Source of the DNA: Lachnospiraceae bacterium
GTDB lineage: Bacteria; Bacillota; Clostridia; Lachnospirales; Lachnospiraceae
Direction of reading: 5' to 3'
Length of the DNA: 59,589 nt
Assembly (NCBI GenBank): GCA_017551165.1
Contig: JAFZMO010000021.1
Location: forward strand, 1-59,589
Part shown: piece after piece, positions 1-59,589 of the stretch
Numbering within the stretch: the first letter of the stretch is position 1
Layout: each line of letters opens with the position of its first letter
Program-made: the position numbers and the translations under genes
Notes under the pieces: generated by a model
Told to the model about the DNA's origin: nothing
Database searches by the model: none
What the model saw: the letters and a program-made list of their open reading frames with translations, nothing else

Positions 1-168
1 GACATAAAGCATCGAGCAGATGTGACGATTGCGCTCGCCCTGATTGAAAACCTTGTGAAGAAAGGTGTGCTCAGCGAGGAGTGCTTTTTGAAGATAAAGG
101 AGGATGCGGAGCAGATGCTCGAGGAGGAAGAACTCGAGCCGGAGGAGACGATGGTAATAAACCTGTGA
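1..168 (+). CDS. C-terminal fragment of a small acidic protein (5' end outside window)
   Basis: The first frame of the window is open from base 1 to a TGA at 166-168 and encodes the last 55 residues of a protein. The visible part is helical, with an Ala/Leu-rich stretch followed by a strongly acidic tail rich in Glu. No family was recognised. It lies directly upstream of a serine recombinase and reads in the same direction, so it may be a small accessory gene of the same mobile element. That link is inference from position only. Confidence 0.5.
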   Translation, partial: DIKHRADVTIALALIENLVKKGVLSEECFLKIKEDAEQMLEEEELEPEETMVINL

Positions 169-190
169 GGACGGATGAGAATGACAGTTA

Positions 191-222
191 CGGATCGTGT
201 TTCGGATCAAGTTTCGGATCAA
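191..222. repeat. Three CGGATC words at exact 12-bp spacing
   Basis: CGGATC starts at 191, 203 and 215. The last two copies lie within a perfect 12-bp tandem repeat (GTTTCGGATCAA at 199-210 and 211-222). The array ends 13 bp before the -35 box of the recombinase promoter. This arrangement suits a regulator-binding or recombinase-binding array, or part of an attachment site. A short frame (175-258) also crosses it, so a coding repeat cannot be excluded. Confidence 0.5.
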
Positions 223-235
223 CCTGAAAATGTCC

Positions 236-264
236 TTGATTATAACTTTTTTATGTGATAGAAT
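236..264 (+). promoter_or_regulatory. Sigma-A promoter of the serine recombinase
   Basis: TTGATT (236-241) and TAGAAT (259-264) are separated by 17 bp, and a TGA just before the -10 box gives an extended -10. Transcription would start near 271, about 30 bp before the recombinase start codon. Confidence 0.6.
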
Positions 265-301
265 CAAACTAACATAGGATGATGTTTCGGAGGGCAGGCA
301 G

Positions 302-2074
302 ATGAGTCGGGTCGTGGCAATCTATGCAAGGGTTTCGACGGAGCATGAGGCACAGTTATCTGCTTTGGAAAATCAGGTGCAGTATTACAACAACGTTTTG
401 AAGCTGCATCCGGACTGGAAGTTGTACCGCCAATACATCGATGAAGGGATCACCGGCACCTCGGTAAAAAAACGGAAAGCCTTCCTCGAGATGATGGAGG
501 ACGCGGCTAGGGGTTGCTTTGACCTGATCGTTACGAGGGAAGTGTCACGGTTCGCCAGAAATACGGTGGATACGCTTCAGGAAACCCGGAAGCTGAAACG
601 AATGGGCGTCGAAGTGTATTTCACCGAAGATAACATCTGGACTATGAATGACGAGGACGGAGAACTGCGTCTTACCTTAATGGCAACGCTTGCGCAAAAT
701 GAAAGCAAGAAGACGTCAATCCGCGTCAAGGCCGGCATGAAGGTGTCCTACCAAAATGCAATACCCTACGGGAACGGCAATATTCTCGGGTATGATCGTG
801 TCGAGAAGGAACGGGTGATCAACCCTGAGCAGGCGGAAACGGTTCGCATGATCTTTGATCTCTATCTGAGCGGCATGGGATTGTCCAAGATCCAGCGTGA
901 GCTGGAGAAGCGTGGAAGACGTACTTCGTCGGGACTGACAAGATGGCATGCGAAGACGGTGAGCCAGACGCTGCGGAATCCTTTTTATTGCGGGACCATC
1001 GTTTACCGGAAAGAGTTCGTTCCGGACTATTTGGATCAACGGAAAGTAAAAAACCATGGTGAGGTTGAACAGGTGGTCGTTGAGGGAAAACATACCCCCA
1101 TCGTTACCAAAGAAGAATTTGCCCGCGTGCAGGAGTTGCTTGACAACCAGAATACCAAATTCAAAGACGGCAGGAGATATGGCGTTAAGCCGTTGGAATA
1201 TATCTGGTGCCAAAAACTGAAATGCACCTGCGGTCATAGATTCAATCGGCGGCCTTGGTCAATCGCCAGCAAGGGTGTGAGGACGTATTGCTACCAGTGT
1301 TACAGCCAGAAGATGACGGGGACGGTAGCTTCTAGACTGAAGAAGGGTCTCAGCATTGAGGGGATCTGTGATGCGCCAATCATTGCAGAATGGAAACTGG
1401 AGACGATGCTGTCAATGCTTCTCAACCTGTTCCTGTCGGATCGTAAGCGGGTGCTGCAGATTGCCAATTCTCTTCTCGAAGAGAATTTTCAGGATGATAT
1501 GAACAAGGAGATGAGAGCCAGACTGAAGAAGCAGGAGCGGCAGTTGAAAGCTCTCAAAGATAAACAGGAACGGCTTGTGGATCTCCGGCTGAACGATGAG
1601 ATTACCAGAGCACAGTTCCATGACCGCAATACAGAACTGACGGAGCGGATTGACAAGCTCGAAACAGAACTTGAGGAAATCCGGCAGGAAGAAGTACTGA
1701 GCAAGGAAGAAGTCAACAAGAAACTGGATTTGTTAAAATACACGATGAAACAGGATTTTTCGTTTACAAATATACGAATTCCTGATACCATAATAGATGC
1801 CTTTGTGAAAGAGGTTATCCCCTACAATGACCACTTTGTGTGGCGTTTGAGGATATGTGAAGGCGAGGTAGGTTGTTCAGTCGAAGGAACGGCGCGTAAG
1901 CCGAGGTTCCGACTGAGAGAATCGAAGACACCCGGCCAGGATGATAGCGACACAGGCCGCGATCAAGGATTTGAAGTAATCATCCGAAAAATAAAACGAC
2001 TGTTTCAGCCGGCTCCATCCGAAAGGGTGGGGCCGGTTAATTTTTTATTACGAATAATCCAATATGTGATATAA
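302..2074 (+). CDS. Large serine recombinase (site-specific integrase/resolvase family)
   Basis: This 590-residue protein is predicted to catalyse site-specific DNA strand exchange for a mobile element. The N-terminal resolvase domain carries the YARVST motif with the nucleophilic Ser at residue 12. A recombinase domain follows at about 160-280, then a Cys-rich zinc ribbon at about 302-340 (CxCG and CxxC pairs) and a long Lys/Glu-rich coiled coil at about 403-475, the usual order for large serine recombinases. The ATG follows GGAGGGCAGGCAG. The last ~22 codons run through a strong terminator hairpin (2008-2045), so the natural C-terminus may have been altered by insertion next to a host terminator. 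No partner integrase or clear element boundary is visible. Confidence 0.93.
   Translation: MSRVVAIYARVSTEHEAQLSALENQVQYYNNVLKLHPDWKLYRQYIDEGITGTSVKKRKAFLEMMEDAARGCFDLIVTREVSRFARNTVDTLQETRKLKRMGVEVYFTEDNIWTMNDEDGELRLTLMATLAQNESKKTSIRVKAGMKVSYQNAIPYGNGNILGYDRVEKERVINPEQAETVRMIFDLYLSGMGLSKIQRELEKRGRRTSSGLTRWHAKTVSQTLRNPFYCGTIVYRKEFVPDYLDQRKVKNHGEVEQVVVEGKHTPIVTKEEFARVQELLDNQNTKFKDGRRYGVKPLEYIWCQKLKCTCGHRFNRRPWSIASKGVRTYCYQCYSQKMTGTVASRLKKGLSIEGICDAPIIAEWKLETMLSMLLNLFLSDRKRVLQIANSLLEENFQDDMNKEMRARLKKQERQLKALKDKQERLVDLRLNDEITRAQFHDRNTELTERIDKLETELEEIRQEEVLSKEEVNKKLDLLKYTMKQDFSFTNIRIPDTIIDAFVKEVIPYNDHFVWRLRICEGEVGCSVEGTARKPRFRLRESKTPGQDDSDTGRDQGFEVIIRKIKRLFQPAPSERVGPVNFLLRIIQYVI
2008..2045 (+). terminator. 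Rho-independent terminator inside the 3' end of the recombinase frame
   Basis: An 11-bp GC-rich stem (CGGCTCCATCC with GGGTGGGGCCG, two G-U pairs) closes a GAAA tetraloop and is followed by a T-rich run. The same 28-bp sequence recurs exactly at 6738-6765, and a degraded relative lies at about 2809-2831. Confidence 0.75.
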
Positions 2075-2126
2075 TCGCCCTAAGTAGACATGTTATGTCT
2101 TGCCAAAAACGGGGTATTCCCGTTTT
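2067..2126 (+). promoter_or_regulatory. Extended -10 promoter and leader hairpin of the XRE regulator
   Basis: TGATATAAT (TATAAT at 2070-2075, with TGA just upstream) gives an extended -10 element; no good -35 is visible. In the leader, AAAACGGG (2106-2113) pairs with CCCGTTTT (2119-2126) across a 5-nt loop. This is an attenuator-like hairpin before the start at 2188. Confidence 0.45.
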
Positions 2127-2187: not shown

Positions 2188-2697
2188 ATGGATCAGAAGA
2201 AGATAGGTGGATTCCTGAAAGAGCTCAGAAAAGAAAAAGGGATTACGCAGGAACAGCTTGCGGAAGTCTTCAATGTATCAGGAAGGACCGTGTCCCGCTG
2301 GGAAAATGGTAACAACATGCCGGATTTGGATATTTTGATCGAGATCTCCGATTACTATGAAGTTGACCTCCGAGACATACTAAACGGAGAAAGGAAACAC
2401 GAAACAATGGAAAAGGAAATGAAAGAAACCGTATTACAGGCAGTCGAATACACCAATGCAGAGTCCGAAAGATGCCACAAACGCGTCAGACTTTGCACTT
2501 CCGTCGGAATGCTCATCTTTGTGATCGCTATGATCGTAAATGATTCGTCATTTGCGGCGACTCATGAGTACGCTCATGTCGGATGCGATATCGCGCAGGG
2601 AGTCGCTCTGGGGATCATGCTTTGCGGATTGATCCTGTCAAGTCGGTACGGCGCGAAGATCAAAGCATTTAAAAAGAGATTGTTCAAAAAAGCATGA
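2188..2697 (+). CDS. XRE-family regulator with two C-terminal membrane segments
   Basis: The 169-residue product begins with a Cro/C1-type helix-turn-helix (residues ~5-60, including the ITQEQLAEVF and VSRWENG motifs). After a short linker come two hydrophobic segments at about 104-120 and 134-152, so this looks like a membrane-tethered DNA-binding regulator. The ATG at 2188 was chosen because AGGAGG lies just upstream; a longer in-frame start at 2095 falls in the leader hairpin region. Membrane-linked XRE proteins are common in Firmicutes and often control a neighbouring gene, but the target here is unknown. Confidence 0.8.
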   Translation: MDQKKIGGFLKELRKEKGITQEQLAEVFNVSGRTVSRWENGNNMPDLDILIEISDYYEVDLRDILNGERKHETMEKEMKETVLQAVEYTNAESERCHKRVRLCTSVGMLIFVIAMIVNDSSFAATHEYAHVGCDIAQGVALGIMLCGLILSSRYGAKIKAFKKRLFKKA

Positions 2698-2701
2698 CAG
2701 A

Positions 2702-2737
2702 AATGCCGGGCCGGATTAAGGTCCGGCATTTTTTGTC
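2702..2737 (+). terminator. Terminator of the XRE gene
   Basis: AATGCCGGGCC pairs with GGTCCGGCATT around a 7-nt loop and is followed by a T run. It begins a few bases after the stop codon of the regulator. Confidence 0.85.
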
Positions 2738-2868
2738 TGGAGCGAGTTGTTTGAAACAGCTATGAATCAGGGGGGAAGTAATTTGCGAAAATCAAATGAG
2801 ATCAGCTTAGCCGGTTCCATTCGAAGAGTGGCACAATAATGGCCACCCTTCGATTCATTTTATCCCTA

Positions 2869-3402
2869 TTAGGAAGGAAGATACTCAGATAGACAATCGC
2901 TAAAAACTGTAAAGCAGATAATGGCATTACGATAAACTTCGCGTTGCGCTACTTTATACTCGTTAAATGTATGATTTTTGCAGTAAAAGATAATGCCACC
3001 GATTACTATAGTAAGACCAAACAGGAGCAGGTACTGGATAGATGTATTTGAGAGTGAGCCAAATAGCAAACCACCGCCGAATAGTAGTGCCATAACGGAG
3101 AACAAAGAGCCTATGTAGGTTGTTACATTTGAATAAATAGTATTTATTGTACTTTCAAAGTGATCAACGTCTTCCGTAGCCATTTCGAGAATCTGTATAG
3201 CCACTGCAGACTGATGCTTTAGCAACGAATAATCGCTTTGCTTTTTTAAGTGAAATTGATAAAAACTACGAAGTTCCTTTAGCGCTTTGTCAGATCTTTG
3301 TTCACAGAAGTTGTCTTCTTTTGTCATAACCTCATCGGTATTTTCTAGGTTATCGGAGAAAAAAGAACTTGGAAAGAATGGATAAACGGATTTGTGGTTC
3401 AT
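2869..3402 (-). CDS. Unrecognised two-TM protein with long N-terminal helical region
   Basis: A 177-residue protein on the minus strand, preceded by AAGGAG seven bases from its ATG. The first ~90 residues are charged and helical. Two hydrophobic segments follow at about 96-116 and 122-140, then a short amphipathic tail. This outline resembles the 2TM effector-type proteins found in defence islands (for example SLATT proteins), but no diagnostic motif was seen, so that is only a possibility. Its base composition is clearly AT-richer than the chromosome downstream. It is divergent from the larger membrane protein at 3629, and both lie beside a serine recombinase, suggesting acquired cargo. Confidence 0.7.
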   Translation of the reverse strand: MNHKSVYPFFPSSFFSDNLENTDEVMTKEDNFCEQRSDKALKELRSFYQFHLKKQSDYSLLKHQSAVAIQILEMATEDVDHFESTINTIYSNVTTYIGSLFSVMALLFGGGLLFGSLSNTSIQYLLLFGLTIVIGGIIFYCKNHTFNEYKVAQREVYRNAIICFTVFSDCLSEYLPS

Positions 3403-3560
3403 GAAATGTCAATCTCCTTAATATTTTATTTGCGAAGCATAGAAAAGAGAAGCTTCGTCATAGAAAATATCTTATCACAAGACAGTGTCGAAAGATAGAG
3501 TAGAGCATGTACAATGTAGAGGATTAGGCAAATAACATATAAGAAACCATATTATACTAC

Positions 3561-3589
3561 TTGTTTGACTGAACCGGTCATGATACAAT
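3561..3589 (+). promoter_or_regulatory. Promoter of the 3629 membrane protein
   Basis: TTGTTT (3561-3566) and TACAAT (3584-3589) are 17 bp apart. The predicted start of transcription lies near 3596, which argues against the upstream in-frame ATG at 3593. Confidence 0.55.
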
Positions 3590-3628
3590 AAAATGAATTA
3601 TCAAATCTTTTCTGCTGGGGTGGTGCTT

Positions 3629-5209
3629 ATGTCAAAAGAACAGAACGGTAAGGTTAAGGATACTCATCGAGATTTTCCCTCATGGGTAAGTACGGTGATC
3701 ATATGTGTTGCGGTTGCAGATTTGATTTTTGTAACTCTATTGTTCTATTTTATGTCAATGGGGTATATCACCGAAGAAGCATTTGGTGGGGGTGCCCTTG
3801 CTATGGTTATGTCTAGCGGTATATCGATCATCGCTATTGCTGTAGCAGTGTGGGCAGGCCTTAATATTGCTAACGCCGTAGAAAGAAGACAGCTAATTAA
3901 TCTACAGGAAGCTTTAACGGATGTAGAGGAGAGACAAAGAAAACTCAAAGATGAGGAAAAGGCGTATGCCGAAACCATTGAAGATATTCGAGCAACGCAA
4001 AAGGAGGAGTTTCTTATCGAATTAGAAAGATTATCGTTTGATGTCTTGTCTCGGAAACTATTTGATGTCTTCTATATAATTGATATAAAAAAAGAGGGCA
4101 AATCAATCCCTTGGGCAAAGCTTACCTCTATCGAGCGTGAATTTCGTTTAATTGACTTTGCAGCACGTGAAAAACGAACGAGCGTTGGATTACTTCGAGT
4201 TACAGATGGAAATGAGTTTTTCCTTAGGGTTGTTGATCAGTGTGTGAACCGTATTGACAACTTGCTTTCAATGTATACGATGGAAAAAAACGATATAGTT
4301 TCTTGTTATCTAAATATTCGAAAGGGTGACTTGTATTACTATCGGGGATATGAAAGCAGGGCTCACGAAGATTTTCAAACGACTATAAGATTGTATACGC
4401 ATAAAGCGGTATTGAATCAGTTGCTAAATATTGAAAGTAAAGATCCTGGAGGTGGAATAAAAACACTCCAAGATAGTTGCAAGTTGATGAAGACTCAGGA
4501 TAAGAAAGAACCTTTGGTTGCGTATATGTGTAACACTATTGGAGATTCTTATCGCATAATGGATGATTTATCGAACTCACGAGTTTTCAGCGAGTATGCA
4601 ACAGTTTTGTGTCCGAACGAGATAACTTCACCAGAGGAACTAGAGGCTGCTGAGATATATCATAGAAAACGTGGTTGTGTACTCGAGCGCATATTTGCGG
4701 CTGATGGAAAACAATTAGAGGAGAGTTCGTTTAAGGCTACGATGGAGGAATACGAAAAAGCAGCAAAAATCAAACTTACACGAATGAATCTCAAAACGCG
4801 GTTATCTTTGATTGAGAAGTATCTAAGCGCTATGGTGGGGATAGGCTTCGTGAAAATTGATGATAATCAGCATCGAACCCCCAAAATAGTTGATGATCGA
4901 TATTTCCAAACATATAATAGCTTTTTGCCTGAACAAAAGAAAATTTGGCACTTAAGAATGCGAGAATTAGAACAGTTAAAGAACACTGCGTTGTTGATGT
5001 ATCCGGGAGAGCCGCTTGGATACGAATATGAATGTGTCTATTTCCGAAATAGATTTATTTCGTGCGGAAAAGATGCTGCGCAAAAAAAAGGAGTGGTTAG
5101 AAAGGCTACGGAGGCTATGAAAAAACTTGATTATATAGCACCGGTTAAACGAGGTTTTACGCAGGTGATTTTTGAAGACATTGAAGAAATCGTGAAACTA
5201 AAAAGATAG
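3629..5209 (+). CDS. Unrecognised two-TM protein with coiled coil and TPR-like cytoplasmic region
   Basis: The 526-residue product has two N-terminal hydrophobic segments (about 20-42 and 54-80). A charged coiled coil follows at about 82-120, then a long soluble helical region whose middle part has tetratricopeptide-like character (paired aromatic helices around residues 220-330). The ATG at 3629 follows a GGGGTGG ribosome site and is downstream of the predicted transcription start; an in-frame ATG at 3593 is too early. The gene is AT-rich and lacks the genome's GGAAAATG word. No enzymatic motif was found. Its position beside a recombinase and opposite another 2TM gene fits accessory cargo; a signalling or defence role is speculation. 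Confidence 0.75.
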   Translation: MSKEQNGKVKDTHRDFPSWVSTVIICVAVADLIFVTLLFYFMSMGYITEEAFGGGALAMVMSSGISIIAIAVAVWAGLNIANAVERRQLINLQEALTDVEERQRKLKDEEKAYAETIEDIRATQKEEFLIELERLSFDVLSRKLFDVFYIIDIKKEGKSIPWAKLTSIEREFRLIDFAAREKRTSVGLLRVTDGNEFFLRVVDQCVNRIDNLLSMYTMEKNDIVSCYLNIRKGDLYYYRGYESRAHEDFQTTIRLYTHKAVLNQLLNIESKDPGGGIKTLQDSCKLMKTQDKKEPLVAYMCNTIGDSYRIMDDLSNSRVFSEYATVLCPNEITSPEELEAAEIYHRKRGCVLERIFAADGKQLEESSFKATMEEYEKAAKIKLTRMNLKTRLSLIEKYLSAMVGIGFVKIDDNQHRTPKIVDDRYFQTYNSFLPEQKKIWHLRMRELEQLKNTALLMYPGEPLGYEYECVYFRNRFISCGKDAAQKKGVVRKATEAMKKLDYIAPVKRGFTQVIFEDIEEIVKLKR

Positions 5210-5219
5210 GGAACCTCAG

Positions 5220-5270
5220 GGCTGAACAATCACCCTCTAGGGCAGTTGTTCAGCCTTCTTGTATTGCACA
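5220..5270 (+). terminator. Terminator after the accessory membrane gene
   Basis: GGCTGAACAA (5220-5229) pairs with TTGTTCAGCC (5256-5265) and is followed by TTCTT. It separates the AT-rich accessory segment from the GC-richer aldo/keto reductase region. Confidence 0.7.
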
Positions 5271-5364
5271 GGAACTTTAATGGATAATCCATTGAGGATG
5301 CATTTTCCGAATGATAGAATGAGGACAGTGGGTTACCACAATACGATTGAACGGAGGAGAGGGT

Positions 5365-9466: not shown

Positions 9467-11812
9467 TCACTTCAGTGCCTCCACCATATCTATTCTCCGA
9501 ATTCGCAGGGACAGGAGAAGTGTGGTGGCGAGCGTGCAGAGGAACACGATGCTGCACACGCGGGCCAGGTCAGCGCCGGTGATGGAGGCGTAGATCTTCA
9601 GGGTGTCGTTCGAGAAGTTCGAGCAGTACAGCTTTAGGAACCGGAAGCCGAGCGGCAGTCCGGCCAGAGCGCCGAGGCCGAGGATCAGGATGTTCTCAAA
9701 CGAGGCGAGCAGCCGGATCTCGCCGTAGTGGAAGCCGAGCACACGGAAGGTGTTGTACTCGCGGGCGCGCTCGATGAAACTGAGCACGCTCAGGTTGTAC
9801 AGGACGATTACGACGAGAGCGAAGGCAACCGTTTTCATGAGGTTGAATATTCCGGAAAATGCGGTCCGAAATTCGTCCAGATTGTTCGCCTGACGCGCGA
9901 CGCCCAGGAGCTGCGAGACGGCCGGATCGGCCTTCACGGCGGTTGGATCGGCGATGTCGCTCGTGAGCATGTGGGTAGGGCGAAACGCCGCGCCTGCGCT
10001 TGTCCAGCAGCGCTCGGTGATATACAGGGTCTGTGGCATGCTCGATGGGATGATGCCCGCGATCACAAAGGAAAAACTACGTTCGGAACCGGAGGGGAAC
10101 AGCTCGACTGTGTCCCCTCTTTTGATGCCCAAAGCTTCGGCCATACCCTCGGTGATGTACGCGCCGTCATCGCCCGGAGTCCGCCCGTCGGTGGTTTCCA
10201 GGTTGATGAATGTTCCGTCGGAAAATACGGTGACAGTCTTGAAGTATGTATCCTCCATCGCGGCAACGCTCCCACCGGCTTCTCCCCCCTTGACGACCCT
10301 CATCCGGCTCTGCAGCACCTCGGTCATCTGTCCGTTCAGCTTTTCCGCCAGGGAATCGACATATGACGGATCTGTGCCGGCAGTCAGAGTCAGCTTGTTC
10401 GTGTACGTGAACTCGCTGCCGTATGTTTTGTCGGTAAATGCTTTGATGGAGTCGGGCGTGCCGAAGCCGATCATGAGCAGCATGAAGCTGCCGCACACAC
10501 TGATAACACCTAAGGATATGCGCGCCTTGTGGGCTGCCGCATCGCGAAGAGTCCAACGCAGGCCGAAACTGATTTTCCGCCAAAAACCGGGCAACCGTTC
10601 GAGCAGCGTGTTGCGGGCGGTTTTGCCGCGCCTGTCGGCGGACTCTGCGGGCAACCCCCTGATGGCCCCTACAGCGGCCAGGACCGCCGTGAGGAAGGAG
10701 AGGAAGACGAGGAGAAGTATGACGAGCAGCGAGCCGACTGTGTGGCGGATCGGCCACTCGGGGATCGAGATGATCCTCTGCTGATTGGGTTGCAACGCCT
10801 TCGTGAACGGGAAGGAGCACAGGAAGCCCAGGATCGTCCCGGGGATGCTCACGAGCAGGCCGTACGAAGCGTAGTGGAGGATGAGCGCGTGGTTGGAAAA
10901 ACCGAGCGACTTCAAGGTGGTGATGTCCGAGCGCTGGGCGTCGATCAGACGCTTGATCGTGGTGCGCATGGACATCACGGCGAGCAGGAGGAACAGGCCT
11001 GAGAACAACAGAGAGATCCGCTTGAGGTTGCCTGCCTGATTGTTCACGAATGAAACTTCAAACATGGTATCCCTGTCGTAGTAGGCGAGAAACCGCGAGC
11101 CGAGGATGTCGTTGACCCGCTCCTTGAGCGCGGAATCCTCGCTCGTCACCGCGAGGAGATTGCAGCGGTACGGAATGCCGAACGCGCTCGCGAGATCGTC
11201 GCTCATATAGCCGTAGCCGAAGCGATGATGGTCCGGGACATAGTAGTCCGACGATCCCACAAAATGCGCGCGTTCCGCGGACATGACGATGCCGGCAACG
11301 GAGACCTCGACGGTGGTGTTATTGAGGGTGAGGGCAAGCGTATCCCCGACTGCGATGTCGTTTGCCTCCGAGTAGTCGCTGTTGATCCACACGCTGTCTG
11401 TGTGAGTGCGATCGTAGGGAACGCCCTCAATCAGACGCATGGATGAGATGGACTCGTTGCCGACGGTGTCGAGGCTGAGGCGGGAGCTGGGTTCGGCCGC
11501 GGCGGACGGATTCTGAGCGGACTCTGCGGCGCTGACCTCCACGGTGATCCGCAGCCGCGCAGAGACATCACTCACGCCGGCTGTGCCGCGGACTGCGGCG
11601 ATATCTTCGTCGGTGAAGTACGTGGCGTACACCCACTCATCGGCCAGATTGGTCTCCTCGGAGAATCGGCCGTACTCGTACTCAATGCCGCTCCAGATGC
11701 CTTCCAGACCGCTGTACACGGTGACCGAGAGCGTTGCGAGCAGCAGCACGGACAGAAATTGAAGCTTGTATTGGCGAATGCTGCGAAGCATTTTCCGAAA
11801 CAGAAATGACAT
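9467..11812 (-). CDS. ABC transporter permease, FtsX-like (duplicated)
   Basis: A 781-residue membrane protein with an N-terminal membrane segment and a large extracytoplasmic domain (about residues 45-255). A first block of three membrane segments follows (about 270-400), then a fourth segment, a second extracytoplasmic domain and a final three-segment block. This is two FtsX domains in tandem, as in the large permeases that pair with MacB/LolD-type ATPases. Such systems act as mechanotransmitters or exporters of peptides and lipids. GAGGAAGAAGGGA precedes the ATG. The ATPase gene lies 30 bp upstream in the same operon, controlled by the divergent TetR regulator. The substrate is unknown; antimicrobial peptide resistance is one option. 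Confidence 0.9.
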   Translation of the reverse strand: MSFLFRKMLRSIRQYKLQFLSVLLLATLSVTVYSGLEGIWSGIEYEYGRFSEETNLADEWVYATYFTDEDIAAVRGTAGVSDVSARLRITVEVSAAESAQNPSAAAEPSSRLSLDTVGNESISSMRLIEGVPYDRTHTDSVWINSDYSEANDIAVGDTLALTLNNTTVEVSVAGIVMSAERAHFVGSSDYYVPDHHRFGYGYMSDDLASAFGIPYRCNLLAVTSEDSALKERVNDILGSRFLAYYDRDTMFEVSFVNNQAGNLKRISLLFSGLFLLLAVMSMRTTIKRLIDAQRSDITTLKSLGFSNHALILHYASYGLLVSIPGTILGFLCSFPFTKALQPNQQRIISIPEWPIRHTVGSLLVILLLVFLSFLTAVLAAVGAIRGLPAESADRRGKTARNTLLERLPGFWRKISFGLRWTLRDAAAHKARISLGVISVCGSFMLLMIGFGTPDSIKAFTDKTYGSEFTYTNKLTLTAGTDPSYVDSLAEKLNGQMTEVLQSRMRVVKGGEAGGSVAAMEDTYFKTVTVFSDGTFINLETTDGRTPGDDGAYITEGMAEALGIKRGDTVELFPSGSERSFSFVIAGIIPSSMPQTLYITERCWTSAGAAFRPTHMLTSDIADPTAVKADPAVSQLLGVARQANNLDEFRTAFSGIFNLMKTVAFALVVIVLYNLSVLSFIERAREYNTFRVLGFHYGEIRLLASFENILILGLGALAGLPLGFRFLKLYCSNFSNDTLKIYASITGADLARVCSIVFLCTLATTLLLSLRIRRIDMVEALK

Positions 11813-11842
11813 AGTGGTTCCCTTCTTCCTCTATCGAATTCT

Positions 11843-12514
11843 TTATGCGCAGGCAGCGGTCTTGTCCGCAATAATCCTCCCGTCGCGCAGCCGGATTACG
11901 TGGTCGGCGATTGCGGCGACGTCGGGGTTGTGGGTGACGACGACAACGGCGGTGTCAGGGTTTTTGGAGCAGTTCTTCAGGATCTCGAAGATGCGCGCCC
12001 CGGTCGTGACGTCGAGTGCGCCTGTCGGCTCGTCGCACAGCAGAAGCTTCGGGGATTTGGCGATCGCCCGCGCAATGGCGACCCGCTGCATCTCCCCGCC
12101 GGAGAGCTGGTTCGGAAAATTCTCCATCCGCCCGGCGAGGCCGACATCCGCGAGGATCTCTGCCGACTTGTCTGCATTGCCGTTCAGGTTGGCGGCGATG
12201 CCGACATTTTCGAGCGCGGTGAGATTTTCCACAAGGTTGTAGAACTGGAAGACGAAGCCGACGTCCCTGCGCCGGTAGTCGGTCAGCTTGCGGTCGGGGT
12301 AGGCGGAGATGTCCTCTCCGTCGACCAGGATCCGGCCGGACGTCGGGCGGTCCATCCCACCGAGCAGGTTGAGCATCGTGCTCTTGCCGGAGCCTGACGG
12401 CCCCAGGATGACCGTGAATTCACCGGGCTTGATCTCTGCGGAGACGCCGCCGAGCGCGGAGATCTCCTCGGAACCGGAGTTGTATTTTTTTACGACATTG
12501 TCCAAAATGATCAT
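11843..12514 (-). CDS. ABC transporter ATP-binding protein, MacB/LolD type
   Basis: A 223-residue cytoplasmic ATPase that would energise the FtsX permease encoded next to it. Walker A (GPSGSGKST), the signature LSGGEMQRVAIARA and Walker B (LLLCDEPTGALD) are intact, and the switch His is present in VVVVTHNPD. The start at 12514 (Met-Ile-Ile-Leu) was chosen because GGGAGG lies 10 bases upstream; the frame stays open to 12574 but that reaches into the operator region. It is the first gene of the minus-strand operon. Confidence 0.93.
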   Translation of the reverse strand: MIILDNVVKKYNSGSEEISALGGVSAEIKPGEFTVILGPSGSGKSTMLNLLGGMDRPTSGRILVDGEDISAYPDRKLTDYRRRDVGFVFQFYNLVENLTALENVGIAANLNGNADKSAEILADVGLAGRMENFPNQLSGGEMQRVAIARAIAKSPKLLLCDEPTGALDVTTGARIFEILKNCSKNPDTAVVVVTHNPDVAAIADHVIRLRDGRIIADKTAACA

Positions 12515-12566
12515 GAGTAATGTACCTCCCAAAATTTTCTGCCCTTCTTTTGCAAAAGAAAATAAG

Positions 12567-12665
12567 TGACACACTTGTGTAACTTCGAGCGTTATGATAT
12601 AATCGAAATCGGGCGGAAGTCAATAGCTCCGGGAAAAGATACACGATAATGTCACAAGTGTGTCA
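12567..12665. promoter_or_regulatory. Divergent promoter region with two inverted TetR-type operators
   Basis: TGACACACTTGTGT (12567-12580) is repeated in inverted orientation within TGTCACAAGTGTGTCA (12650-12665), sharing a 13-bp core. Between them lie a plus-strand promoter (TTGTGT 12575-12580, 17 bp, TATAAT 12598-12603) and a minus-strand one (TTGACT, 16 bp, TATATC, read from 12623 to 12596). The first operator overlaps the plus-strand -35 box. This fits autorepression by the TetR regulator and control of the ABC operon. Confidence 0.7.
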
Positions 12666-12700
12666 TTTTCGAAAAATGCCTCTCGGAAAGGAGATCGTTC

Positions 12701-13330
12701 ATGAACAACTCGACCAATCCTTCGGCTTTGCGGTCGAAGAAGGAGATCTGCGATGCGCTGATCCGGTTGATGGATCAATACCCGTACAGCGAGATCACGG
12801 TCAAGCAGATCGTGCTGGAAGCGGGGGTCGTGCGCAAGACCTTTTACCGGAATTTTACGGACAAGGACGATGTCCTCGAAGCGCTTTTGAATGAGTTTAT
12901 CAGGGAATATACGACAGAGATGCATTCGGCGCTGGATCGGTCGTGGGTGGAGGTTATCTTCAATTTTTGCGTGAAAAACAGCCATTTTGCGGAGCTCCTT
13001 GACCGGAACGACATGCTGTATCTTGTGCTGAATAAGCTGAACACGGTACTACCCAAAATGCATGACGAAGCGGATGCGATGGGCGTTATCCCGGAGGAGA
13101 TCTTCGGCGACCTCGACATGACGTACATCATCCCGTTCAACACGGGGGCAATGTGGAATGTAGTCGCGACGTGGCTTCACCGCGGGATGCGCGACGATCC
13201 GAAGAAGATCGCCGCCGACCTGCGGGCGTACGCGATCCGGCTCGGCAATATTGCGACGAAGCGGGCCGCGCAGCGCGGCGCGGCAGCGGCCCCGGCGGAG
13301 CAGAGCACGGTCAATGGAGGAAACGCATGA
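12701..13330 (+). CDS. TetR/AcrR-family transcriptional regulator
   Basis: A 209-residue regulator with an N-terminal TetR helix-turn-helix (ITVKQIVLEAGVVRKTFYRNF, about residues 32-52) and a variable helical ligand-binding domain with a C-terminal Ala-rich tail. The ATG follows AAAGGAG. It is divergent from the FtsX/ATPase operon with two inverted operator copies between them, which strongly suggests local control of the transporter. The stop overlaps the next start (ATGA), so it is translationally coupled to the small membrane protein downstream. Confidence 0.92.
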   Translation: MNNSTNPSALRSKKEICDALIRLMDQYPYSEITVKQIVLEAGVVRKTFYRNFTDKDDVLEALLNEFIREYTTEMHSALDRSWVEVIFNFCVKNSHFAELLDRNDMLYLVLNKLNTVLPKMHDEADAMGVIPEEIFGDLDMTYIIPFNTGAMWNVVATWLHRGMRDDPKKIAADLRAYAIRLGNIATKRAAQRGAAAAPAEQSTVNGGNA

Positions 13331-13743: not shown

Positions 13744-13788
13744 TGACGGAAAATGAGGCATGCGCATTTGCTTTATACCACAAGTATA

Positions 13789-13817
13789 GTGACATTTTCC
13801 AAAAACTATGCTATGAT
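13789..13817 (+). promoter_or_regulatory. Promoter for the rtcB leader transcript
   Basis: GTGACA (13789-13794), 17 bp, TATGAT (13812-13817). The -35 box overlaps a copy of the CATTTTCC word (13793-13800). Transcription would begin about 330 nt before rtcB. Confidence 0.5.
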
Positions 13818-14094: not shown

Positions 14095-14153
14095 TGCTCC
14101 GTTAGCTCATTCGCAGAGTATTGTTCAATGTATTCCAAGAAAGGACGAGGAAA

Positions 14154-15368
14154 ATGGACATTCTGGAAATCAAAGGAAAAGTGAATACGGCAATCTGCTA
14201 TGCAAGAGTAGTGGAGGACGAAGCGATAGAGCAGATCAGGCGCATGTGCGATTACGACATGACGGAGGGCTCGAAGATCCGGATCATGCCGGACGTCCAC
14301 GCGGGTAACGGCTGCACCATTGGAACGACCATGACGATAAGAGATAAAGCGGTTCCCAACGTGGTTGGCGTCGATATCGGCTGTGGAATGTACACGGTTG
14401 ATCTTGGAACGGAGGACGTCGATCTTGAGCGCGTCGACGAGGCTGCGCATTGCATCCCTTCGGGGATGAATGTGTGGGACGGTCGACGGGAGCATTTTGA
14501 CCTGACCGGGCTTGTCTGCTACAGAGAGTTGAAGGATGCGAAGAGACTGGAGAGATCGCTTGGCACGTTGGGCGGAGGCAACCATTTTATAGAGATCGAT
14601 AAGGCCGCGAACGGGACTAAGTATCTCATCATTCACTCCGGATCACGCAACCTCGGGAAGCAGGTGGCGGAGTTCTACCAGAATCTTGCGATCCGACTGG
14701 ACAGAGGGTTTGACAGGTACCTGCAGGAGCGGGACGAGATCATCAGAAGCTACAAGGAGATGGGACGTAAGAATGAGATAGAAGGGGCGTTGAAGCAACT
14801 CCAAAAGCAGTTCCATGAGCTCACACCGACCATGCCGGACGACCTGTGCTACCTGTCCGGACAGTATTTGGATGACTACCTTCACGATGTGGAGATCTGT
14901 CAGAATTTTGCGAAGAGAAGCAGAGAGCTCATGGCAGAGATCCTTATGGAGCGCGCCGGGCTGACCGGCGGCGAGAGCTTCCACACCATTCATAATTATA
15001 TCGATACAGAAGAAATGATTTTGAGAAAGGGCGCAATTGCGGCCCATAATGGTGAAAAAGTGCTGATTCCGATAAATATGAGGGACGGAAGCATTCTTGC
15101 GGTCGGCAAGGGCAATCCGGAGTGGAATTACTCCGCTCCGCACGGCGCCGGGAGGATCATGTCGCGAGGCAAGGCTCGGGCAACACTGAACCTTGAGGAG
15201 TACCGAAAGACGATGGAGGGCGTATACACAACTTCGATCAACGAAAATACATTGGACGAGGCGCCGATGGCATACAAGAGTCTTGGGGACATCATCGATG
15301 TCGTTAAGGAGTCTGTGGATGTCATCGACGTCATGAAACCTATTTACAACTTTAAGGCTTCCGAGTAG
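14154..15368 (+). CDS. rtcB: RNA-splicing ligase RtcB
   Basis: A 404-residue GTP- and Mn-dependent RNA ligase that joins 2',3'-cyclic phosphate (or 3'-phosphate) ends to 5'-OH ends in RNA repair. Family motifs are all present: DVHAGNGCTIGTT, VGVDIGCGM with the metal-binding Cys, LGGGNHFIE, HSGSRNLGKQV, and SAPHGAGRIMSR near residue 330 with the His that is guanylylated. The ATG at 14154 follows GGACGAGGA; the frame stays open upstream to 14121 without a better site. The octamer GGAAAATG spans the start codon. A structured leader with a terminator precedes it. No rtcA or rtcR is nearby. Confidence 0.96.
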   Translation: MDILEIKGKVNTAICYARVVEDEAIEQIRRMCDYDMTEGSKIRIMPDVHAGNGCTIGTTMTIRDKAVPNVVGVDIGCGMYTVDLGTEDVDLERVDEAAHCIPSGMNVWDGRREHFDLTGLVCYRELKDAKRLERSLGTLGGGNHFIEIDKAANGTKYLIIHSGSRNLGKQVAEFYQNLAIRLDRGFDRYLQERDEIIRSYKEMGRKNEIEGALKQLQKQFHELTPTMPDDLCYLSGQYLDDYLHDVEICQNFAKRSRELMAEILMERAGLTGGESFHTIHNYIDTEEMILRKGAIAAHNGEKVLIPINMRDGSILAVGKGNPEWNYSAPHGAGRIMSRGKARATLNLEEYRKTMEGVYTTSINENTLDEAPMAYKSLGDIIDVVKESVDVIDVMKPIYNFKASE

Positions 15369-21347: not shown

Positions 21348-21396
21348 TCGGGTCATTAGATTGGGAAAATGTGCGTAGATCGGAGGACTGAGGAAA

Positions 21397-22194
21397 ATGT
21401 ACGGAGCAATACTTGGCGACATCATCGGTTCGCCGTATGAGTTTGATCAGGGCGATAAGTCGAAGGAGTTTGAGCTGTTTGATCCGCGGGTTCATTTTAC
21501 GGATGATTCGGCGATGACGCTGGCGATCGCGAAGGCGATCCTGAGCGCGGGGCCGGACGCGGGTGAGGCGGACATGAAGGCAGCGATGATCTCCTGCATG
21601 CAGGATTTTGGGAACCGGTATGCGATCCATGAGTACGGAGCGCGTTTCATCGGGTGGCTGCGCGAGAAGGATCCGAAGCCGTACGGCAGCTTCGGCAACG
21701 GCTCGGCGATGAGAGTGGCGGCGGTTGGCTGGTGCTATGACTCGCTGGAGCGCACCCGCGAGGTTGCGCGGTGGTCGGCGGAGGTTTCGCATAATCATCC
21801 CGAGGGGATCAAGGGCGCGGAGTCCGTGGCAGCGGCGATCTTCCTGCTGCGCAACGGCAGCTCCATGGAGGATGTGAAGGAGTTTATCTGCAGCGAATTC
21901 GGGTATGATCTGTCCCGGACGCTCGACGAGATCCGCCCGGGCTACTACCATGTGGAGAGCTGCCAGCAGACGGTGCCGGAGGCGATCACGGCATTTCTCG
22001 AGAGCACGGATTTTGAGGATGCCATCCGCAACGCGGTCTCGCTCGGCGGCGACTGCGACACCTTAACGTGCATCACCGGAAGCCTTGCGGAGGCGTATTA
22101 CGGTGTGCCTGCGGACATGGTCGCGGAGTGCGAGCGGCGTCTCCCGGAGGAGCTTCTCACAGTGCTGAAACGCTTTGAGGAAATCCGCCGATAA
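21397..22194 (+). CDS. ADP-ribosylglycohydrolase (DraG-like)
   Basis: A 265-residue enzyme predicted to remove ADP-ribose from proteins or small molecules using a binuclear Mg site. Hallmarks are GAILGDIIGSPYEF at the N-terminus, FTDDSAMT with the metal-binding Thr-Asp-Asp, GNGSAMR, HNHPEGIKGAES, and the C-terminal GGDCDT metal motif. The ATG at 21397 follows GGAGGACTGAGG, and the octamer GGAAAATG spans it. No ADP-ribosyltransferase is encoded nearby, so it may act generally rather than as a toxin antidote. Confidence 0.94.
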   Translation: MYGAILGDIIGSPYEFDQGDKSKEFELFDPRVHFTDDSAMTLAIAKAILSAGPDAGEADMKAAMISCMQDFGNRYAIHEYGARFIGWLREKDPKPYGSFGNGSAMRVAAVGWCYDSLERTREVARWSAEVSHNHPEGIKGAESVAAAIFLLRNGSSMEDVKEFICSEFGYDLSRTLDEIRPGYYHVESCQQTVPEAITAFLESTDFEDAIRNAVSLGGDCDTLTCITGSLAEAYYGVPADMVAECERRLPEELLTVLKRFEEIRR

Positions 22195-40861: not shown

Positions 40862-40893
40862 ATAAACAACGAATGGGCGAAAATGGAGAAGTT

Positions 40894-42411
40894 ATGACTG
40901 AGGAAGAATTCAGCATTTTGAACCTGCACGGGCAATCGTATGATCCCGAGGGGACGGAGGCCTTCTACCTGGACCTCAACCTCCTGCAGATCATCGAGCG
41001 GGCGATCGCCAACTGGGGCGTCGGCGTGAAGAAGTACTACATGTATTTGCCGGAGAGCGCCGAGGAGACAGCGTACCGCCGCGCCGTGTACGGGGATGTC
41101 AAGAAGGACGCGGTGTACGAGGCGCTGGTTGCGTACACGAAGCAGCTGGCCGGGGTGGCGGAGCTGCGACGCGAGAAGGAGGCGACCACCAGCCCGATGC
41201 GGCGGACGATCTGGCGGATCCGCGAGACGGAGGCGTACTGCAACGCCTATGAGACGCTGGCGCGGGCGCTGGAGCAGGCGGACCTTGCCTCGGACGGCAT
41301 GATTCGGTTCCGCGGGATTCTTCAGAGCATCCTTGCGGACGAAGAGTACCTTGCGATGCGGGAACAGACGAGCCGGCTACTCGGGGAGATCCGGGCGCTC
41401 CGGTTTGTCGTCACATACGATCGGGAGCGGATGAGCGTGGAGCTTCGGGAGCTTCCGGAGCGCGGCGCCTACGACGAGTGGCTCGACAGCGTGAGCGGCG
41501 TCACCGCCGGCGCGTCGTCGCTGCTACAGAATCCGTTCAAGGCGGACCCCGGAGTCACCGAGATGGAGCAGGCGTGCGTCAACATCCTGATGAAGAAAAA
41601 GCCGGAGTTCTTCCGCGAGTTAAAGGCCATGGCGGAAAATGAGACCGACTGCCGCAGGCAGGAACTGACTCGCTTTGAGCAGGAGATCCTGTTCTACCTC
41701 TCCTTCGCAACATTGCAGCGCGACATGGAGAAGGCGGGCTTTGCGTTTGCGACGCCGGACACCGATGAGAATAAGCGCATGGAGGCGACGGGACTGTATG
41801 ACCTGGCGCTCGCGCTTGCGTCGCGCACGAGCGGAAAGACCGTGATCCCGAACGATTTCTACTACGGCGAGGGTGATCGCTTCTTCGTGCTCACGGGACC
41901 GAACCAGGGCGGAAAGACGACATTTGCCAGAAGCCTCGGGCAGCTGGTGTATTTTTCGATGATGGGCCTCGACGTGCCCGCGAAGGCGGCGTGTGTGCAC
42001 TTCTTCCCGAGCATTCAGACTCATTTTTCGGTGGAGGAGAGTATCGAGACGGGGCGCGGCAAGCTGATGGAGGAGCTGGTGCGGCTCGCTCCGATGATGG
42101 GGACACACCGACAGGGCAGCTTTGTTGTCATCAACGAGCTGTTCACGACCGCAGCAAACTACGATGCGCAGATCATGGGCAAGCGCGTGCTGGATCATTT
42201 TGTGGGGCTTGGGTGCATGGGCATCTACGTCACGCACATCAAGGAGCTGGCCGATGAACGCAAGGGCGTTGTGAGCCTGCGTGCGATGCTGAACGACCGT
42301 GGCATCCAGACGTTTGAGATCCGCCGTGGCGAGGCGGAGGACACGGCCTGCGCGATCAACCAGGTGAACAAATACCGGCTGACATATGAACAGCTGAAGG
42401 AGCGCTTATGA
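40894..42411 (+). CDS. MutS-like ATPase, first of a tandem pair
   Basis: A 505-residue protein ending in a MutS-type ABC ATPase: Walker A GPNQGGKTTFA (~335-345), then SVEESIETGRGKLMEEL and FVVINELFTTAA (Walker B). The upstream helical region resembles MutS lever/core segments, but there is no mismatch-binding domain I. The ATG at 40894 follows GGAGAAG; an earlier ATG at 40873 lacks a ribosome site. The stop overlaps the next gene (ATGA), so the two MutS-like proteins are made together, probably as a heterodimer. Function unknown; DNA structure recognition is likely. Confidence 0.88.
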   Translation: MTEEEFSILNLHGQSYDPEGTEAFYLDLNLLQIIERAIANWGVGVKKYYMYLPESAEETAYRRAVYGDVKKDAVYEALVAYTKQLAGVAELRREKEATTSPMRRTIWRIRETEAYCNAYETLARALEQADLASDGMIRFRGILQSILADEEYLAMREQTSRLLGEIRALRFVVTYDRERMSVELRELPERGAYDEWLDSVSGVTAGASSLLQNPFKADPGVTEMEQACVNILMKKKPEFFRELKAMAENETDCRRQELTRFEQEILFYLSFATLQRDMEKAGFAFATPDTDENKRMEATGLYDLALALASRTSGKTVIPNDFYYGEGDRFFVLTGPNQGGKTTFARSLGQLVYFSMMGLDVPAKAACVHFFPSIQTHFSVEESIETGRGKLMEELVRLAPMMGTHRQGSFVVINELFTTAANYDAQIMGKRVLDHFVGLGCMGIYVTHIKELADERKGVVSLRAMLNDRGIQTFEIRRGEAEDTACAINQVNKYRLTYEQLKERL

Positions 42412-58658: not shown

Positions 58659-58690
58659 GCGCGAACAACAGCGATAATAAGCAAAAATCA

Positions 58691-58727
58691 GGGGCTGTCG
58701 GGAGTCATTTTCCGGCAGCTCTTTTTC
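58691..58727 (+). terminator. Terminator after ilvB
   Basis: GCTGTCGG pairs with CCGGCAGC (one G-U) and is followed by TCTTTTT. The loop contains a CATTTTCC word (58706-58713). Confidence 0.8.
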
Positions 58728-58739
58728 CTTGGAATTTCC

Positions 58740-58768
58740 TTGACGAAAAGGCGGCATAGGTATACAAT
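58740..58768 (+). promoter_or_regulatory. Promoter of serC
   Basis: TTGACG (58740-58745), 17 bp, TACAAT (58763-58768). The transcript would begin near 58775, at the first base of a pseudoknot-capable leader. Confidence 0.7.
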
Positions 58769-58774
58769 AACTCA

Positions 58775-58879
58775 TAAGCGGCCCTGAGGAAGATAGTTTC
58801 TTCTCCCGGGGGCAAAACCGCTTACGACACAGGGCCCGTCAGTCGGGCAACGATATATTCTTTTTAGGAGGTACTAACC
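58775..58879 (+). promoter_or_regulatory. Structured serC leader with H-type pseudoknot potential
   Basis: TAAGCGG (58775-58781) pairs with CCGCTTA (58818-58824). CCCTG in the loop (58782-58786) can pair with CAGGG outside it (58830-58834), an H-type pseudoknot. GAGGAA/TTCTTC forms a small hairpin in the loop. GCCCG (58834-58838) pairs instead with CGGGC (58844-58848) in a competing hairpin. The ribosome site TAGGAGG follows at about 58865-58871. This looks like a ligand- or translation-responsive leader. Confidence 0.6.
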
Positions 58880-59589
58880 ATGGGAAGAGTGTATAACTTT
58901 TCTGCAGGTCCGGCCGTACTGCCGGAGGAAGTATTGAAGGAAGCCGCAGCAGAGATGCTCGACTACCAGGGGAGCGGCCAATCCGTTATGGAGATGAGCC
59001 ATCGCTCCAAAGTATTTGACAAGATCATCAAGGACGCTGAGCAGGATCTTCGGGATCTGTTGAACATCCCGGACAACTACAAGGTTCTGTTCCTTCAGGG
59101 CGGCGCTCATCTGCAGTTTGCCATGATCCCGATGAACCTGATGAAGAACAGGGTTGCGGATTACATCGTAACCGGCCAGTGGGCTAAGAGAGCCTTCAAG
59201 GAGGCTCAGAAGTTCGGCGATGCGAAGTGCATTGCCTCCAGCGAGGACAAGACGTTCTCCTACATTCCGGATTGCTCCGATCTTCCGATCGACGACAATG
59301 CGGATTATGTCTACATTTGCGAGAATAACACCATTTACGGAACGAAGTTCAAGACTCTGCCGAACACGAAGGGCAAGGATCTCGTCGCTGACGTATCCTC
59401 CTGCTTCCTCAGCGAGCCGATGGACGTTTCCAAATATGCGGTGATCTACGGCGGTGCGCAGAAGAACATCGGACCTGCCGGCGTTGTGATCGCCATCATC
59501 CGCGAGGATCTGATCACCGAGGATGTGCTTCCGGGCACGCCTACGATGCTTCAGTACAAGACTCATGCGGACAATGATTCCCTCTACAA
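58880..59589 (+). CDS. serC: Phosphoserine aminotransferase (3' end outside window)
   Basis: The visible 236 residues are the N-terminal part of SerC, which transfers an amino group to 3-phosphohydroxypyruvate in serine synthesis. Features are NFSAGPAVLPEEVL at the start, EMSHRSKVFD, LFLQGGAHLQFAMIPMN and the PLP-binding Lys ~195 in GAQKNIGPAG. Codon use is more biased than in neighbouring genes, suggesting high expression. A structured leader and near-consensus promoter precede it. The gene runs off the end of the window. Confidence 0.97.
   Translation, partial: MGRVYNFSAGPAVLPEEVLKEAAAEMLDYQGSGQSVMEMSHRSKVFDKIIKDAEQDLRDLLNIPDNYKVLFLQGGAHLQFAMIPMNLMKNRVADYIVTGQWAKRAFKEAQKFGDAKCIASSEDKTFSYIPDCSDLPIDDNADYVYICENNTIYGTKFKTLPNTKGKDLVADVSSCFLSEPMDVSKYAVIYGGAQKNIGPAGVVIAIIREDLITEDVLPGTPTMLQYKTHADNDSLY

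Follow-up and report, generated by a model that had tools for sequence, protein, structure and literature searches.

The window analysed here, the whole stretch of 59,589 nt, carries 40 exact copies of the word GGAAAATG, dispersed within genes and in the gaps between them (Table 1). A first-order Markov model predicts 2.4 copies, and GGAAAATG is the most over-represented 8-mer of the window (z 24). The most over-represented 9-mer is CGGAAAATG, with 24 copies where 0.8 are expected under the same model. A preliminary description of this DNA had put the number of exact copies at about 40 and the expectation at one to two; its observation is correct, and the effect exceeds what it described. It had also put the siblings differing in the last base at roughly 18, about 6 each; we count 11 of GGAAAATA, 10 of GGAAAATC and 2 of GGAAAATT, 23 in total. 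The near-absence of the word from AT-rich islands that it described is only weakly supported: the three islands contain 0, 0 and 1 sites, where 2.0, 0.9 and 1.4 would be expected.

Table 1 Copies of the motif and associated features in the window
Feature	Position	Strand	Remarks
GGAAAATG, 40 copies, dispersed	1..59589	both (25 +, 15 -)	Copies below are examples
AT-rich island	2309..5300	.	GC 0.394; 0 copies, 2.0 expected
CGGAAAATG copy	9853..9861	+	Within FtsX-like permease gene (9467..11812, -)
CGGAAAATG copy	13747..13755	+	Intergenic by the gene calls; convergent with copy at 13793
Motif copy	13793..13800	-	Gap shared with 13747 copy
Motif copy	21364..21371	+	Upstream of ORF 21397..22194
Motif copy	21392..21399	+	ORF 21397..22194 starts at its ATG
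Motif copy	33295..33302	-	Divergent partner of copy at 33326; inverted, ~30 bp apart, within called gene
CGGAAAATG copy	33325..33333	+	Partner of 33295
CGGAAAATG copy	41633..41641	+	Within MutS domain V gene (40873..42411)

Abundance and coding context of the word

The enrichment persists in a genome-wide count. In the 2.54-Mb genome to which the window belongs (G000), GGAAAATG occurs 667 and 717 times in the two orientations, 1,384 times in all, compared with 12 and 8 times, 20 in all, for the reversed word. On average a copy is met about every 1.8 kb, within genes as well as in gaps and in either orientation. The spacing of the relaxed motif is even (CV 0.92 in G000 and 0.96 in its congener G011). 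The contexts of the copies are distinct in 139 of 155 cases, which rules out a repeat family or mobile element as the source.

The enrichment is specific to the word. In about 280 kb of G000, 4 of the 24 one-letter neighbours of GGAAAATG are enriched (observed/expected: GGAAAATA, 54/5.5; GTAAAATG, 36/3.8; GAAAAATG, 60/9.5; GCAAAATG, 32/8.4), and the remaining 20 occur at 0.45 to 2.6 times expectation. In accordance, the second base of the word is loose and a final A is tolerated. When extended, the motif reads CG[G>n]AAAATG[A/C/T], with a final position that is mostly not G, and the flanks add information at a few bases only. Maximal-order Markov statistics are unable to detect the motif, as the enrichment extends to its sub-words.

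In line with the preliminary description, the encoded proteins do not account for the word. Genes were called with a simple script, so coding fractions are approximate, and the codons were shuffled synonymously 100 times. In the genes of a sampled tenth of G000, GGAAAATG occurs 113 times, versus a mean of 7.0 and a maximum of 13 after shuffling (16-fold). The corresponding counts are 194 versus 17.5 (maximum 27) in G011 and 40 versus 4.7 in G002. In the motif-poor genomes G006 and G017, the counts are 17 versus 12.8 and 11 versus 7.6, inside the shuffle range. In the three motif-rich genomes, about half of the peptide places that permit GGAAAATG are filled (112/222, 191/356 and 40/80), versus about a tenth in G006 (17/151) and G017 (11/108), and 13/75 in G004. 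The density of permissive places is similar, at 2.7–3.1 per 1000 residues versus 2.8, 2.4 and 2.0 in G006, G017 and G004, respectively. Half-filled places at similar permissive density match the expectation for drive at neutral sites. Together, the shuffles and the filling of permissive places rule out a protein or codon cause.

The preliminary description had also noted that the word is read in several frames, and within genes it is found in all of them (sense phases 4/15/43, antisense 5/23/22). A ribosome-binding site with start codon is ruled out as well, since most copies are intragenic and in all frames; the copy at 21392 does overlap an ORF start. Between genes, CGNAAAATG occurs 42 times versus 3.1 expected (13 times the first-order expectation). 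This intergenic excess may be partly general, because between the genes of G006 and G017 GGAAAATG also reaches 8 versus 3.0 (2.7-fold) and 14 versus 3.9 (3.6-fold), respectively, by first-order expectation.

Distribution, dialects and inverted pairs

Genomes were tallied by hand according to whether the count of GGAAAATG reaches 10 times that of the reversed word. In the genus, 16 of the 22 genomes reach this threshold, the six below it being G004, G006, G015, G016, G017 and G018. The nearest named loci mostly bear the labels Lachnospiraceae or Lachnoclostridium, which fits the Clostridia of the preliminary description. Five of 250 sampled genomes of the family reach the threshold, as do none of 143 genomes of the class outside the family. 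For G253 only small contigs were sampled (6.5 kb counted), so its motif rests on the whole-genome counts.

Related words occur elsewhere in the family, in other genera: GGNCAATG in G118 and G199 and GGNAAATG in G134. In genes, GGNCAATG occurs 71 times in each of G118 and G199, versus 11.2 and 12.0 after synonymous shuffling, and GGNAAATG occurs 101 times versus 18.4 in G134. The three motif types share the skeleton GGNMAATG and form lineage-specific dialects with a common core. G004 retains CG[N][AC]AAATG (37 versus 5.0 in genes and 16 versus 3.1 between genes). G006 has its own enriched word, GCAAAAGC (63 versus 16.9 in genes and 20 versus 4.1 between genes), with 36 of 65 coding copies in one frame; this word may be a separate dialect or serve in terminators. 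The words CCTNCAAAA, TCCNAAAGC and CCGAAAGC (G017), TNCAAAAGC (G006) and GNCAAATGC (G004) lie mainly in one frame and are therefore taken for codon-context effects. They are set aside with less certainty; a modest intergenic excess is seen for GNCAAATGC (6 versus 1.3) and CCGAAAGC (8 versus 3.2).

Conservation of sites between species is little above that of other 8-mers (24/76 versus 19.9 expected), in a comparison of 76 sites; a type IV pilus region with few motif copies makes up a large part of the alignment. In a ComEC tree, G006 and G017 are firmly paired, and their placement next to the remaining rows of the genus is weakly supported (88/50). The tree is left out as evidence on the history of the dialects, because its deep forks are unsettled and the G199 row is probably in the wrong reading frame.

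Two terminators of G118 are built from inverted copies of the GGNCAATG dialect, shortly 3' of ORF ends. Terminators of this kind made of uptake words are described for Neisseria and Pasteurellaceae (PMC1852404). The samples of G199, G134 and L048 yielded no terminator-like inverted pairs; the close pairs in the G134 sample are 1 opposite and 3 same-orientation. In G000 and G011, exact-word pairs within 200 bp number 34 in opposite and 10 in the same orientation, and no clear terminator pairs are among them, the pairs being without clear T-runs or weakly folding. Foreign DNA was approximated by low GC, with a mixed outcome: the GC-poorest fifth holds fewer copies in G011, G118 and G134, but not in G000 and G199. 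Likewise, motif density drops with GC in G011, G118 and G134 and does not drop in the sampled parts of G000.

Candidate functions of the motif

The preliminary description had offered three readings, a DNA uptake sequence, a Chi-like recombination site and a chromosome-organising site, of which the uptake sequence fits best and the polar forms of the other two are disfavoured. On a 291-kb contig of G011, most genes and the GC skew, from which replication direction is read, point one way. On this contig GGAAAATG occurs 89 times forward and 78 times reverse (p 0.44), where other words of the same composition occur 1,912 versus 661 times. Thus the strand bias proposed as a check is not seen, which argues against both Chi- and KOPS-like sites, and a strand-polar signal is rejected. 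KOPS and SRS, the sites of FtsK and SpoIIIE, are likewise abundant octamers, but the origin-to-terminus polarity that defines them is missing on this contig. A Chi-like site, which AddAB would read on DNA under degradation to switch to recombination and so mark self DNA in repair, is unlikely. In its favour, AddA, of the AddAB that the preliminary description had proposed to look for, matches in 22/22 genus genomes (21 above the curated cut-off), and Chi words are short, asymmetric, abundant, species-specific and enriched in core DNA. However, AddA scores equally high in the motif-poor G006 and G017, known Chi sites are mostly G-rich and often show a leading-strand enrichment that this contig lacks, and the excess of GGAAAATG over codon and protein expectation is much above that known for any Chi. 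The Chi model also gives no role to the terminator hairpins of G118.

A site bound without strand polarity by an abundant protein of the nucleoid or of chromosome organisation would account for the even coverage. It would also accommodate the palindromic doubles ATTTTNCGNAAAAT, which number 8 and 9 versus 1.1 and 1.4 for independent halves, some of them in sequence that looks promoter-like by eye. We regard it as improbable nonetheless, since an occupancy near one half at permissive places in genes is seemingly far above the need of such a site, the word is not enriched in the genes of two congeners, and known organising sites are few or polar. That the word marks self DNA for a defence or methylation system, for example as an asymmetric methyltransferase motif protecting against a nuclease, is quite unlikely. 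Asymmetry and richness in A are features that BREX or type I/III methylation motifs can share with GGAAAATG, but restriction sites are usually avoided rather than gathered. HIP1 of cyanobacteria is likewise a hugely enriched octamer of uncertain role; it is a palindrome, which GGAAAATG is not. Codon-context words such as CCTNCAAAA illustrate how a codon-pair, amino-acid or mutational bias could happen to favour one word. Such an artefact is highly improbable for GGAAAATG, which lies in all frames and on both strands, exceeds expectation both in genes and between them, and would require a mutational context of about eight bases.

A putative DNA uptake tag

We consider the odds slightly better than even that GGAAAATG is a genome-wide self-identification tag working like a DNA uptake sequence. 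The word is over-represented beyond composition and, in the sampled tenth of G000, beyond coding, and its orientations are near-equal on the G011 contig and in the G000 genome. The reader would be a DNA-binding protein of the competence machinery, at the surface or in the membrane, that prefers tag-bearing DNA; candidates are ComEA, ComEC and a pilin of the Tad/Flp or type IV kind. Fragments with the tag would enter cells and recombine more frequently, and each new copy would therefore tend to spread in the population. Spread by preferred uptake would let the tag accumulate wherever the protein sequence tolerates it, and the tag would drift into dialects as lineages separate.

The machinery that such a tag would need is present in the genus. 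In accordance with the competence-gene check proposed earlier, ComEA is found in 22/22 genus genomes (21 above cut-off) and ComEC in 20/22. At least one pilus-type T2SSF gene is present in 22/22 and a PilC-type gene in 17/22; the pili are of Tad and/or type IV. G000 has a Tad locus with a Flp-like pilin. A PilC-type gene was not found in G000, G199, G134 or G253, PilB/PilT-like frames are present in G134, and no close Tad ATPase was found in G009; assembly gaps could account for some of the missing pilus genes. The motif-poor sisters G006 and G017 retain ComEC, ComEA, type IV pilus, Tad and AddA genes, so no examined gene separates motif-rich from motif-poor genomes.

Like the DUS of Neisseriaceae, the motif numbers in the hundreds to thousands per genome, lies in either orientation both inside and outside genes, has lineage-specific dialects around a shared core, is missing from some related genomes and, in the two cases of G118, forms inverted pairs that serve as terminators; such pairs are not evident for the GGAAAATG dialect. 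It differs in sequence and host, the DUS belonging to diderm Proteobacteria and the motif to Clostridia, monoderm as judged from the family, and in that a ComP-like receptor is not known for it. The USS of Pasteurellaceae (the 9-mer of Haemophilus influenzae) are likewise asymmetric, of about nine bases, similar in density and loose at some positions; their sequence and host are unrelated, and the flanking information of our motif is limited to a few bases. DUS are 10-mers in eight dialects, with 2,245 to 4,549 copies in dialect counts from PMC3630211, compared with 1,384 exact copies in G000. Sequence-specific DNA uptake is termed an outlier in PMC12040237.

In the open-access literature we found no paper with GGAAAATG as a whole word and none on Lachnospiraceae with an over-represented octamer. 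To our knowledge, uptake sequences are known only from diderms, self-specific DNA uptake is documented in two proteobacterial families only, and no such self-recognition tag is known in gut Clostridia. We tentatively suggest, with a little less than even confidence, that sequence-specific uptake evolved independently in the monoderm Lachnospiraceae, with its own dialects CGGAAAATG, GGNCAATG and GGNAAATG, possibly read by ComEA or a Tad/Flp pilus and not by a minor pilin of the ComP type. Gene exchange among gut Clostridia would in that case run within groups separated by dialect. If so, uptake tags would have a further, independent origin among Gram-positive bacteria of the gut, which would point to them as a general result of transformation. 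Natural competence would extend to many uncultured Clostridia of the rumen and gut, and their DNA-exchange partners would be predictable from genome sequence alone. The tag, added to DNA, would provide a practical handle for transforming harmless anaerobes that resist manipulation.

Abundance and form of the word

In the window (59,589 bases, GC 0.540), GGAAAATG is the top 8-mer under a first-order Markov model, with 40 exact copies (25 on the plus strand and 15 on the minus strand) against 2.4 expected. The top 9-mer under the same model is CGGAAAATG (24 copies against 0.8 expected). The window is one contig of an assembly, G000, of 2,543,225 bases in 160 contigs (completeness 91.4, contamination 7.7), across which the word occurs 667 + 717 = 1,384 times, or once per 1.8 kb; the reversed word, with the same letters read backwards, occurs 20 times. 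Among the named loci nearest by the RtcB protein of the window, L019 (Lachnoclostridium sp. UBA1175), L020 and L021 contain 10, 11 and 5 copies, respectively, and 0 of the reversed word. Codon structure is lost in the reversed-word control, so synonymous shuffling is our main statistic.

Across about 280 kb of G000, the word widens to TTCGGAAAATG, in which the base after CG is loose, and CGNAAAATG has 175 copies against 18.8 expected, 147 of them in distinct contexts. Only 4 of the 24 one-letter neighbours are clearly enriched in this sequence, the other 20 lying at 0.45 to 2.6 times expectation. In 182 aligned intergenic copies from G000 and the relative G011, the base in front of the motif is C at 0.66, the loose place is G at 0.56, and the base behind is A (0.40), C (0.29) or T (0.23), with G rare at 0.08. 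The flanks are distinct in 139 of 155 exact copies, which rules out a repeat family.

Close pairs of the word (<200 bp apart), pooled over G000 and G011, are in opposite orientation in 34 cases versus 10 in the same orientation. Palindromic double sites, ATTTTNCGNAAAAT, number 8 in G000 and 9 in G011, against 1.1 and 1.4 under independent halves. Several double sites lie between genes, and some, judged by eye, in promoter-like sequence (L001-L018 and the window; L126-L132, L169-L182).

Placement relative to genes and strand

Genes were called with a simple, crude script, and synonymous codons were shuffled 100 times. The genes in a sampled tenth of G000 contain 113 copies of the word, against 7.0 ± 2.3 after shuffling (maximum 13). 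The corresponding counts are 194 against 17.5 (maximum 27) in G011 and 40 against 4.7 in G002. In the genes of the sister species G006 and G017, the counts stay inside the range of the shuffles (17 against 12.8, maximum 19, and 11 against 7.6, maximum 15). The word is read in all three frames and on both strands. By the same kind of calls, 38 of 155 copies are wholly intergenic, in an intergenic share of about 15% of the sequence, and intergenic CGNAAAATG occurs 42 times against 3.1 expected. Synonymous shuffling, the use of all frames and the intergenic copies together rule out the word as a by-product of proteins. Intergenic GGAAAATG also exceeds first-order expectation in G006 (8 against 3.0) and G017 (14 against 3.9), which weakens the contrast between motif-rich and motif-poor species.

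The word fills 112 of 222 places where the peptide permits it in G000, 191 of 356 in G011 and 40 of 80 in G002; the corresponding values are 17 of 151 in G006, 11 of 108 in G017 and 13 of 75 in the congener G004. The density of permissive places per 1000 residues is similar (2.8, 3.1, 2.7, 2.8, 2.4 and 2.0, respectively). Therefore, the word occupies synonymous positions, to about half, and there is scant evidence of protein sequence being altered to create further sites. Sites are scarcely better conserved between species than other 8-mers are (24 of 76 against 19.9 expected). With low GC taken as a stand-in for foreign DNA, the GC-poorest fifth carries fewer copies in G011, G118 and G134 and not in G000 or G199.

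Polarity was assessed on contig C1 of G011, whose 291 kb were covered in adjoining stretches; there, GC skew is positive in 15 of 15 bins and 83% of called coding bases are on the plus strand. The word occurs there 89 times forward versus 78 times reverse (p 0.44), and for 275 other words with identical composition the totals are 1,912 forward and 661 reverse. The lack of orientation bias on a strongly polar contig makes a replication-polar signal and an mRNA-level signal unlikely.

Distribution, dialect words and inverted pairs

Sequence from relatives was sampled by stretches. Enrichment was tallied by hand as copies at least ten times the reversed-word count. This level is reached by 16 of 22 genomes of the genus, G000 included, with up to 1,763 copies, and not by the congeners G004, G006, G015, G016, G017 and G018. 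It is reached by 5 of 250 sampled genomes of the family (G000, G002, G118, G134 and G253) and by none of the 143 genomes sampled from other families of the class.

In G118, which belongs to a different genus, GGNCAATG ranks first among words, with 79 copies in 93 kb of sequence; genes contain 71, against 11.2 after synonymous shuffling, and the whole genome 2,302, versus 162 reversed. The same word occurs 1,171 times versus 83 reversed in G199 (in genes, 71 against 12.0 after shuffling) and 20 times versus 0 in the named locus L048 (Lachnospiraceae RGIG8251). The dialect word of G134 is GGNAAATG (101 in genes against 18.4). In these three genomes, the dialect words are spread over frames and exceed first-order expectation between genes (G118, 8 against 2.1; G199, 8 against 1.5; G134, 9 against 2.1), and the skeleton common to the dialects is GGNMAATG.

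In G006, G017 and G004, the leading words mostly keep to one frame and were left out of the set of dialects. The exception is GCAAAAGC of G006 (L099-L108, L225), with 63 copies in genes against 16.9 after shuffling and 20 intergenic against 4.1, perhaps another dialect or a terminator part. In genome G025 (L143-L146), TTCGGAAA has 24 copies in genes against 4.5 after shuffling, in several frames; it may be a further dialect or a palindromic site. G004 (L119-L125) has dispersed repeats around GGGGACGGGG and CCCCTAACCCC, with 11 to 22 copies of these words in 140 kb and few distinct contexts; TCCTATGAAAC and GGATCGCACTG in G017 (L109-L118) and GAGGCAATGG and ACATTCAGGG in G006 (L099-L108) are also dispersed-repeat-like.

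In G118, the dialect word forms inverted pairs at two places, one a few bases and the other about 40 bases past the end of an open reading frame. Both give strong hairpins that have T-rich runs (-23.6 and -23.4 kcal/mol; z of -5.0 and -5.9). This arrangement, in two cases, is similar to the terminators formed by inverted uptake sequences that are reported in Neisseria and Pasteurellaceae (PMC1852404; PMC3630211). Samples of G199, G134 and L048 show no terminator-like inverted pairs, and inverted pairs in genomes with GGAAAATG do not clearly qualify as terminators.

Among other genes of the window, the serine recombinase region is probably a mobile element. Most of the named loci nearest by RtcB bear the label Lachnospiraceae or Lachnoclostridium, and many come from rumen; these labels point to Lachnospiraceae as the family. 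One genome, Tb.RUG.520, has two copies of RtcB (L022 and L031).

Features of the window and of a G118 stretch
Feature	Location	Remarks
Large serine recombinase	window 302-2074	Resolvase and Recombinase domains; beside AT-rich island
RtcB gene	window 14121-15368	relatives up to 88% identical, across many rumen Clostridia
Two adjacent genes	window 40873-44027	MutS domain V the sole Pfam match of each
Open reading frames preceding the inverted pairs of G118	L196 242..2056 and 10896..13325	

Competence genes and possible origin of the pattern

Matches to ComEA are found in 22 of 22 genus genomes (21 above the cut-off), to ComEC in 20 of 22 and in 10 of 10 other genomes queried, and to AddA in 22 of 22. 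The comEA gene adjoins comEC in G008 (L261). In G000, G011, G006 and G017 (L257, L258, L259, L260), the two are separated by three genes, one for a response regulator, one for a histidine kinase and a third; a domain scan of the G000 genes assigns a Germane domain to the third, and the other genomes were matched by eye. It is possible that this two-component system is a built-in competence regulator.

Of the 22 genus genomes, 17 have a PilC-type gene for a type IV pilus; none was found in G000. The Tad locus of G000 encodes a T2SSE-type ATPase, a T2SSF protein, a Flp1-like pilin and a TadE-like protein. Among 12 genomes queried, 9 have counterparts of the ATPase at 45 to 91% identity (G004, G006, G011, G017, G118, G134, G199, G230 and G253), G009 and G012 have weak matches only, and G018 has weak matches and a 39-residue piece at 67%. 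In Micrococcus luteus, Flp pili are reported to serve DNA uptake (PMC6370729). None of ComEC, ComEA, the PilC-type gene, the Tad ATPase and AddA separates motif-rich from motif-poor species.

Readings of the word as a Chi site, a nucleoid site, a methylation motif or an artefact each have a small chance of being correct, and what probability these and uptake-biased transformation leave falls to processes of some other, as yet unrecognised kind. The data show that a strong, non-coding, non-polar and lineage-specific force writes one asymmetric word at synonymous and intergenic sites, and a different word in other genera. To our knowledge, uptake-biased transformation is the only process that does exactly this. 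We lean somewhat towards uptake-biased transformation as the cause of the pattern, which would involve a reader protein, an uptake bias and competence, all of which we infer.
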